Source: Neobacillus thermocopriae
Lineage (GTDB): Bacteria > Bacillota > Bacilli > Bacillales > Cytobacillaceae
Assembly: GCF_010975035.1 (NCBI RefSeq)
Contig: NZ_JAAIUV010000002.1
Span: 1 to 64,000 of the forward strand
Direction of reading: 5' to 3'
DNA length: 64,000 bases
Shown: positions 32,386 to 34,073 of the stretch, in pieces
How the letters are laid out: each line of letters starts with the position of its first letter
Numbering within the stretch: position 1 is the stretch's first letter
Position numbers and translations under genes: made by a program
The notes under the pieces: model-generated
Databases searched by the model: none
What the model saw: only the letters and a program-made list of their open reading frames with translations
What the model was told of the DNA's origin: nothing

Positions 32386-32658
32386 ATGTTTGTTCAAAGA
32401 CAAGGATTGGTTGTTTGGCTATATTCTTTAAAACAAGCTAAAATGTTAAGACGATTTGGTAATGTTCATTATATATCGAAGAAACTAAAATATGTTGTTT
32501 TATACTGTAATCAAGATGAAGTAGAAGAGATTATGGAGAAGCTTAAAACATTCTCTTTTGTAAAACAGGTCGAGCCATCTTATAAACCATTTTTAAAATT
32601 GGAATATGAGTCAACTCCGGATAAAGCGAAAGAATATGATTATAAATTAGGTATTTAA
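32386..32658 (+). CDS. ylbG: DUF2129 (UPF0298) protein YlbG
   Basis: The 90-residue protein matches YlbG ([21 protein letters not shown], then [13 protein letters not shown]). It has a small alpha/beta fold with no recognised active site; function is unknown. The start ATG 32386 is preceded by AAAAGGGGAAA. The 253-base gap upstream holds the ricF terminator and nothing else I can support. Confidence 0.88.
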
Positions 32659-32689: not shown

Positions 32690-32872
32690 GACGAAAAAAA
32701 ACCCTGCAGAAACCTGCAGGGTCCTTCTAATTCCTTAAAAGGATAGAAGGCAAAGGGAGAGGAGAAACCGGAGGAAGAACTTATGGGGAAACGTAAGTCT
32801 TCTCCGCGGTTGGCAACAACATCCTCGAATTGATGTTGTTATCTTCAGTATTTCCACTCCCCAAAACCTTAT
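32690..32872 (-). ncRNA. Structured RNA (ylbH-leader region); evidence favours a minus-strand small RNA
   Basis: The ylbG-rsmD gap folds into a compact multi-hairpin RNA: GGGAG at 32755-32759 with CTCCC at 32857-32861; a long arm 32766-32785 with 32792-32811; AACAACATC 32815-32823 with GATGTTGTT 32832-32840; and CCTTCTA 32723-32729 with TAGAAGG 32744-32750. I recall an Rfam element called the ylbH leader at this place, assigned to the plus strand. Here a consensus promoter (32879-32907) and an intrinsic terminator (32694-32722) both point to the minus strand, which would give an independent RNA of about 180 bases with a C-rich, Shine-Dalgarno-complementary stretch (TTCCTCCGG). Confidence 0.6.
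32694..32722 (-). terminator. Intrinsic terminator on the minus strand
   Basis: ACCCTGCAG pairs perfectly with CTGCAGGGT (4-base loop). On the minus strand the stem is followed by eight T residues; on the plus strand no T-run follows. Confidence 0.85.
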
Positions 32873-32878
32873 ACCTGT

Positions 32879-32907
32879 TTTATAAAAATTCCTATCTCAT
32901 ATTTCAA
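32879..32907 (-). promoter_or_regulatory. Consensus sigma-A promoter on the minus strand
   Basis: Read on the minus strand: TTGAAA (32902-32907), a 17-base spacer, then TATAAA (32879-32884). The predicted transcript start is near 32872 and runs into the structured region. Confidence 0.65.
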
Positions 32908-32944
32908 ATTCGGATAATTTCGAAAATGAGATTAGGGATTTGTC

Positions 32945-32950
32945 TATAAT
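32945..32950 (+). promoter_or_regulatory. -10 box for the rsmD-coaD transcript
   Basis: A perfect TATAAT lies 65 bases before the rsmD start and downstream of the structured RNA region. If this is the main rsmD promoter, the RNA element is not part of the rsmD leader. The -35 is weak. Confidence 0.45.

Positions 32951-33014: not shown

Positions 33015-34073
<1,059 letters not shown>

Follow-up and report, generated by a model that had tools for sequence, protein, structure and literature searches.

Organisation of the ylbG-rsmD intergenic region

The window analysed here, the whole 64,000-nucleotide (64-kb) stretch of Neobacillus thermocopriae DNA, holds a structured element between ylbG and rsmD (ylbH). 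Read directly on the plus strand, the order is ylbG, its terminator, the element and rsmD, and a TATAAT lies at 32945-32950 ahead of the rsmD start (33015), in line with how the first-pass annotation had described the plus-strand surroundings of the element. An Rfam scan of the window detected a single Rfam 15 family at gathering score, RF00516 (ylbH leader), to which the element belongs by sequence and fold (Table 1). On the minus strand the element ends in the 9-bp stem ACCCTGCAG/CTGCAGGGT (32721-32700) followed by a T run, both read directly, and the earlier claim that this strand has a terminator of its own is thereby borne out. The automated terminator scan had no entry for this minus-strand terminator; what it did report at this stem was a weak terminator-like site on the plus strand. 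We think that G.U pairing may extend the stem into the T tract, which is our proposed explanation for the miss.

Table 1. Features of the ylbG-rsmD region, with positions in the window
Feature	Positions	Strand	Basis and remarks
ylbG	32386-32658	+	ORF; converges on the element; same side in 75/114 loci
rsmD (ylbH)	33015-33575	+	ORF; divergent from the element; same side in 113/114 loci
Rfam RF00516 (ylbH leader) match	32692-32809	+	113.1 bits, E 1.8e-23, cut-off 50
csfG, predicted 146-base forespore small RNA	32694-32839	-	Promoter and terminator positions; place orthologous to that of CsfG in B. subtilis (ylbG-ylbH); ends predicted
sigF/sigG-type promoter: GTATA (32874-32870), 14 bases, GGAAATACTG (32855-32846)	32846-32874	-	Motif in 75/75 loci
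5' hairpin H1 (AACAACATC/GATGTTGTT)	32815-32840	-	Fold; outside the Rfam model; 44 G.U vs 6 A.C enclosed pairs, 75 loci
Hairpin H2, carries the first half of the core	32766-32811	-	Fold; alignment and consensus fold
Pyrimidine core UCCCCAUAAGUUCUUCCUCCGGUUUCUCCUCUCCC	32755-32789	-	CGGTTTCTCCTCTCCC in 75/75 distinct loci; last part UCUCCUCUCCC (32765-32755) predicted unpaired
Hairpin H3, sequence-variable	32722-32750	-	Fold; 47 G.U vs 18 A.C enclosed pairs, 72 loci
Intrinsic terminator, 9-bp stem and T run	32693-32721	-	Sequence; T run throughout the 75-row alignment
sigA-like TTGAAA-17-TATAAA	32879-32907	-	Present; 10/12 here; scores in 75 relatives barely exceed those of shuffles; unlikely to be the main promoter

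The element corresponds to the small RNA CsfG

The element shares its characteristic features with CsfG (S547) of B. subtilis, a small RNA whose name reportedly goes back to a 2011 paper (Marchais et al.), according to papers that cite it. It lies between ylbG and rsmD on the strand opposite to both, has its own intrinsic terminator on that strand, contains unpaired C-rich regions in the predicted fold, and carries a motif match to a sigF/sigG-type promoter at its 5' end. The B. subtilis locus likewise matches RF00516. We conclude that the element is, almost beyond doubt, the CsfG already described. The reading that we favour is that csfG is very probably a free-standing small-RNA gene of ~146 bases on the minus strand, made in the forespore through sigF and then sigG and ended by its own terminator, and that its RNA would act in trans through its core. 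Sequence comparison supports the first part of this reading through the place of the gene, the promoter type, the terminator, the strand, the conservation and the tie to sporulation.

In B. subtilis, Dambach et al. (2013; PMC3574147) reported a Northern that was silent for the 'ylbH leader' strand and strong for its reverse complement. CsfG was also associated with Hfq in that study, and its Hfq-bound peak measured 136 bases, compared to the 146 bases predicted, from predicted ends, in the species examined here. Control of CsfG by sigF and sigG during sporulation is described in PMC8216469, RNA-seq of B. licheniformis places CsfG at ylbG-ylbH (PMC3871023), and PMC4409812 distinguishes three C-rich regions in CsfG and groups it with RoxS and FsrA. 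On targets the accounts differ. PMC8216469 states that no target had been identified as of 2021, and PMC9147052 likewise gives none as known and adds that the sporulation small RNAs under discussion there, including CsfG, could be disrupted with no obvious sporulation defect. At odds with both, PMC12456014 says that CsfG regulates mRNAs and cites the 2011 paper.

The first-pass annotation had read the element as a free-standing small RNA instead of a leader, and had argued that the catalogued strand was misassigned. The description of CsfG in print, the terminator and the promoter motif uphold the first claim, and the position of RF00516 on the plus strand and of the CsfG RNA on the minus strand upholds the second. 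The strand finding itself is not new, having been in print since 2013. RF00516 covers the same DNA element as csfG but models the opposite strand, is classed as a cis-leader and lacks H1. Although the strand was corrected in print in 2013, the element remains a plus-strand cis-leader in Rfam 15, and the label persists in papers: one 2015 transcriptome paper treats the ylbH leader as a cis-element of unknown function, and a second treats it as a leader that went undetected there.

Promoter and transcript ends

The motif GTATA-14-GGAAATACTG, which resembles the sigF/sigG consensus sequences, was scored in relatives. From 121 loci (L001-L121) derived from Rfam matches, seven weak ones were removed, and a similarity filter reduced the remaining 114 to 75 distinct loci; this set is part of all matches, as 142 of the 150 genomes of the order match above the cut-off. 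Six weak matches (L100-L105), considered as possible second copies but without ylbG or rsmD as neighbours, look like chance and were excluded from the counts. L106 has both neighbours and is probably a diverged true copy, yet it was excluded too.

A sigF/sigG-type site scoring at least 10/13 was present in a fixed 25-base range in all 75 distinct loci compared to 1.8% of shuffles, with scores of 13 in 19 loci, 12 in 36, 11 in 14 and 10 in 6; the string was refined on the locus data, so that the score is partly fitted. This motif points to a sigF/sigG-type promoter that in all probability drives csfG. The first-pass annotation had instead started the RNA behind a sigA-type promoter. Its sequence is indeed present (TTGAAA at 32907-32902, 17 bases, TATAAA at 32884-32879), with 10/12 positions of the consensus (row L021), but its role as the transcription start was not sustained. 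Scores of at least 9/12 occurred in 15 of the 75 loci compared to 10.8% of shuffles, and a score of 10 in 3 loci compared to 1.3%, contrary to the expected conservation; the T run, for which conservation had also been expected, does extend through the whole alignment. Similarly, the 5' end near 32872 and the length of ~180 bases gave way to ~146 bases, as the conserved sigF/sigG-type site lies 33 bases further in. The predicted 5' end of csfG is near 32839-32843 and the predicted 3' end is at ~32694. Across the 75 loci the predicted RNA has a median length of 151 bases (range 132-183). The sigA-type site may serve as a secondary growth-phase promoter.

The RF00516 family tracks sporulation in Bacilli

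Among 299 Bacilli genomes, 183 matched RF00516 at E <= 0.001 and 152 scored above the cut-off. The same genomes were split by their best SigG-family match: 209 carry a SigG-type gene (E below 1e-90), and the matches of the other 90 are all weaker (~1e-36 to 1e-43); the curated cut-off is passed by 186 of the 299. RF00516 was matched in 182 of the 209 SigG-type genomes and in one of the 90 others, and that one match was below the cut-off. The family thus tracks sporulation. The genome studied here has a SigG of 515.7 bits, encoded on the same contig as the window. A single family (f49), in which none of 27 genomes matched RF00516, accounts for 18 of the 27 SigG-type genomes that lack a match. 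Since all 18 of its SigG-type genomes lack a match, the RNA would be either dispensable or very diverged there; SigG itself is rather diverged in these genomes (E ~1e-97 to 1e-120). Of 60 relatives, a single genome, from the genus of the studied strain (G006), lacked an RF00516 match, which may reflect an assembly gap or a loss.

Base-pair changes in three hairpins favour the minus strand

Both strands of the element fold far better than shuffles (z -6.05 for minus and -6.47 for plus), as the earlier reading had anticipated. Folding energy therefore cannot choose between the strands, and the good fold of both explains how the strand could be mistaken. Changes within pairs were counted instead, with G.U and A.C scored alike in the hairpins so that neither strand was favoured. 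In the stricter count the T tract was removed and only pairs enclosed by Watson-Crick pairs were used, in 75 loci whose cells are not independent, so that the nominal P value carries no weight. This count covers H1, H3 and H4; H2, being almost invariant in sequence, was left out. For the minus strand the count was 110 G.U, which suit that strand alone, to 29 A.C, which suit the plus strand alone (19:5 in H4; H1 and H3 in Table 1), so that the plus-strand fold is not the better fit to the pair changes in these hairpins. A first, looser count had given 437 G.U compared to 187 A.C, a figure inflated by the terminator T tract. In that count H2 alone leaned to the plus strand (90 G.U compared to 126 A.C), largely the same few pairs recounted in many loci because H2 is nearly fixed. 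Its most variable pair in the alignment, A-U, is replaced by G.U in 14 loci, by G-C in 3 and by A.C in 2. Sixteen pairs make up the consensus fold, and nine of them show both-sided changes in some sequence. Covariation including G-U pairs, proposed earlier as a test of each strand, accordingly fits the minus strand in H1, H3 and H4 but not in H2. Together, the published Northern (PMC3574147) and the G.U excess support the minus strand as the functional one.

The orientation of the element towards rsmD is not invariant. In the sole exception among the 114 loci (L040), the element lies the other way round between its two neighbours ylbG and rsmD but retains its promoter match, and Bacillus sp. 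PAMC26568 (L122) has the same inversion, again with the promoter kept. The element is thus not always upstream of and co-directional with rsmD. In two other loci (L191 and L234) rsmD is also on the other side, 1.1-1.7 kb away.

These observations bear on two other accounts of the element. Rfam treats it as a plus-strand cis-acting leader (an orphan riboswitch) of rsmD, which we find scarcely credible. The Rfam type 'Cis-reg; leader' is accompanied by an equally good plus-strand fold, by a position ahead of rsmD in 113 of 114 loci and by the plus-strand lean of H2, but the other three hairpins favour the minus strand by 110:29, the ylbG terminator stands before the element, and the element is inverted in L040 and L122. 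Moreover, RF00516 is missing from genomes without SigG (match in 1/90) although rsmD is a general gene. The B. subtilis Northern (PMC3574147) also speaks against a leader. It is improbable, too, that csfG is a small RNA of ~180 bases driven mainly by the sigA-type TTGAAA-17-TATAAA in growing cells: the score of 10/12 would suit such an RNA, but the site is hardly conserved at that place, and the published sporulation control is by sigF and sigG (PMC8216469).

The pyrimidine core and its possible function

The most constant part of csfG is its pyrimidine core. CGGTTTCTCCTCTCCC is present in all 75 Rfam-derived loci, where its identity was not built into the search, and the bases ahead of it vary in 14. 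Fold probabilities were computed for the loci with a standard-length core (69 of the 75 long, all 17 other and 13 of the 18 short loci, the latter two groups from the searches beyond Bacilli below). In the long form UUCCCC lies in a loop and the last part of the core, UCUCCUCUCCC, is unpaired, in agreement with the earlier proposal of an exposed CU-rich stretch; the core of the short forms is mostly open.

CsfG would act in trans, with the core UCCCCAUAAG..CUUCCUCCGG-UUUCUCCUCUCCC held out by the flanking hairpins. The core would pair with the Shine-Dalgarno regions of several forespore mRNAs and lower their translation, a mode like that proposed for RoxS/RsaE and FsrA. These RNAs share with CsfG the unpaired C-rich stretches, and a common mode of action is suggested in print (PMC8216469, PMC4409812). 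In contrast to CsfG, they are controlled by ResDE and Fur (PMC8216469) and have known targets. That the hairpins vary while the core hardly does would follow if the hairpins only hold and protect the core. The mechanism draws further on the unpaired last core part, the published C-rich grouping, the Hfq association and a preference for start regions, with the core pairing at -16.2 kcal/mol with 59 start regions of the window compared to -9.4 kcal/mol with 295 internal stretches. This preference was matched by 23 of 100 shuffled cores, and the start sites were pre-chosen by their fit to the 16S tail. Pairing of the core with Shine-Dalgarno regions is therefore plausible, not demonstrated, and we put it forward tentatively as a mechanism that could well apply.

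Searches for matching sites were run in relatives. A long dedicated target, sought as GGAGGAAGANCTTATGGGG with up to three mismatches in 61 genomes, gave 221 matches (at most one per genome being csfG itself) compared to 173 for a backward control, with no recurrent target gene among the matches listed and no single long target standing out. GGGAGAGGAG shortly ahead of ATG gave 155 matches in 101 genomes (at least two being csfG itself) compared to 64 for the backward control, an excess that may come from Shine-Dalgarno likeness alone.

The core might instead bind a protein, Hfq or another RNA-binding protein, and not pair with mRNAs. Its ~34 bases exceed, in length and in strictness of conservation, what a pairing seed requires, the Hfq association is published (PMC3574147) and no target had been identified as of 2021 (PMC8216469). 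Against this, the core resembles an anti-Shine-Dalgarno sequence, a likeness that would be needless in a protein site, and we rate protein binding as unlikely, though deserving of serious attention. Pairing with 16S rRNA (Bacillus AAACCGGAGGAAGGUGGGGA), by which CsfG would act on forespore ribosomes or their assembly, looked striking at first. The core pairs with E. coli 16S at -37.8 kcal/mol compared to -29.7 kcal/mol for shuffles, none of 30 being as good, while 23S is not favoured (28/30 shuffles as good), and 13 contiguous pairs join the first core part (window 32766-32789) to a highly conserved stretch of Bacillus-type 16S. Under stricter shuffles the pairing was reached by 2/60 that kept CUUCCUCC and by 14/60 that kept CUUCCUCCGG. 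In two lineages (G502 and G761) the 16S stretch is changed and the core unchanged, and the most constant core part, UUUCUCCUCUCCC, is mostly uninvolved. These tests left the 16S pairing, which is mostly a by-product of Shine-Dalgarno likeness, unsupported and very unlikely; no 16S match turned up in the assembly to which the window belongs. Pairing of the core with Shine-Dalgarno regions remains the mechanism we propose.

No conserved small open frame, as a dual-function RNA would have, was found on either strand. The 40-codon GTG frame on the minus strand (32735-32857) appears incidental, as the first-pass annotation had assumed: a frame of at least 35 codons occurs in 27 of the 75 loci, 46 of them have no start in phase, and the GTG precedes the predicted RNA start. 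The plus-strand frame MGKRKSSPRLATT.. from ATGGGG has a good ribosome-binding site and looks coding in one genome, and was rejected. It ranges from 3 to at least 60 codons across the 75 loci and is shifted by indels in some; its likeness between species is due to the RNA core. The reverse complement of the core (32765-32820 on the plus strand) mimics a strong start, with GGAGG, 8 bases and ATG GGG AAA opening a 16-codon frame that is not conserved.

The core occurs in Bacillota outside class Bacilli

The genome collection was searched with the exact core pattern CCCCATAWG, 5-15 bases, CGGTTTCTCCTCTCCC, and contained at least 117 such stretches. In the loci outside Bacilli, core identity holds by construction of the search. 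In 12 of the 117 stretches listed, a crude string test indicated that the H2-closing arm is not directly ahead of the core. These 12 are all from metagenome-assembled genomes, labelled Dethiobacter (class Dethiobacteria), Syntrophomonadaceae (class Clostridia), Thermoanaerobacterales, Bacillota/Firmicutes and, in one case, Desulfovibrio. rsmD is divergent from the core in ten and was not found in the other two, and in five a gene like those of alpha/beta-type small acid-soluble spore proteins stands tail-to-tail within 270 bases. The genome labelled Desulfovibrio sp. (L195) combines a csfG core, rsmD and a spore-protein-like gene, and is probably mislabelled or mixed. Eight core loci, including two of the intermediate type described below, were compared with Rfam and scored 26.1-36.3 bits, all short of the 50 bits required.

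A sample of 299 genomes from the phylum Bacillota was searched with the pattern minus its last C. The core was present in 55 genomes, and a backward-control pattern gave none among the matches listed. SigG-type genes (E 1e-78 or lower) are present in all 55, and the core occurs in none of the 47 genomes without one; 197 of the 252 SigG-type genomes lack the exact core. From this sample 34 loci were read, of which 6 were of the Bacilli type and 28 were not. Adding the latter to the 12 above gave 40 rows, and removal of five repeats left 35 distinct loci. Sorted by hand, 18 of these are short, their core lying 3-20 bases from the predicted start, and the other 17 are mostly intermediate (L321 is possibly short). 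Some intermediate loci have an H2-like stem farther out, such as GAAGAGCTTA..TAAGCTCTTC in L305, identified by eye. A sigF/sigG-type site scoring at least 11/14 precedes the core in 31 of the 40 rows, or 28 of the 35 loci, compared to 4% of shuffles; L124 has no such site.

The short core-bearing loci (L133, L145, L176, L179, L192, L195 and others) resemble csfG in the core, in the sigF/sigG-type site ahead of it and in being mostly divergent from rsmD. They differ from the csfG of this window in lacking H1 and H2, in having the core near the predicted start, and in scoring below the Rfam cut-off in the eight tested. We regard these loci as likely relatives of CsfG in spore-formers well beyond Bacillus. 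The ~34-base core in Bacillota outside class Bacilli is possibly new: a literature search on CsfG in Paenibacillus and on sigma G forespore small RNAs in Clostridia, which did not cover the 2011 CsfG paper, returned no report of this extension.

A wider, more speculative proposal is that CsfG might not be an RNA of Bacilli in particular but an ancient forespore RNA of Bacillota as a whole. Its sole fixed part would be the ~34-base core, preceded by a sigF/sigG promoter and located beside rsmD. It would shrink to ~80 bases, core and terminator, in some anaerobic lineages, often tail-to-tail with a small acid-soluble spore protein gene. If this is true, the strict conservation of the core would imply that its set of partners is either very broad or very old, as in a general brake on forespore translation, and a phylum-wide forespore RNA with a near-invariant core would be a suitable starting point for studying post-transcriptional control in spores. 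It is the broader spread of the core that merits further attention. If upheld, it would provide a comparative handle on CsfG, the short forms showing the minimum kept by selection.

Two further observations were made on these loci. In the short-type loci L192 (5042-5454), L176 (5130-5549), L179, L145, L195, L319, L320 and L322-L328, the core is often tail-to-tail with a spore-protein-like gene at 119-268 bases, and both would be forespore genes. One genome (G514) carries two exact copies of the core (C4:227405-227437 and C18:244191-244223), which represent either a second copy or an assembly artefact.
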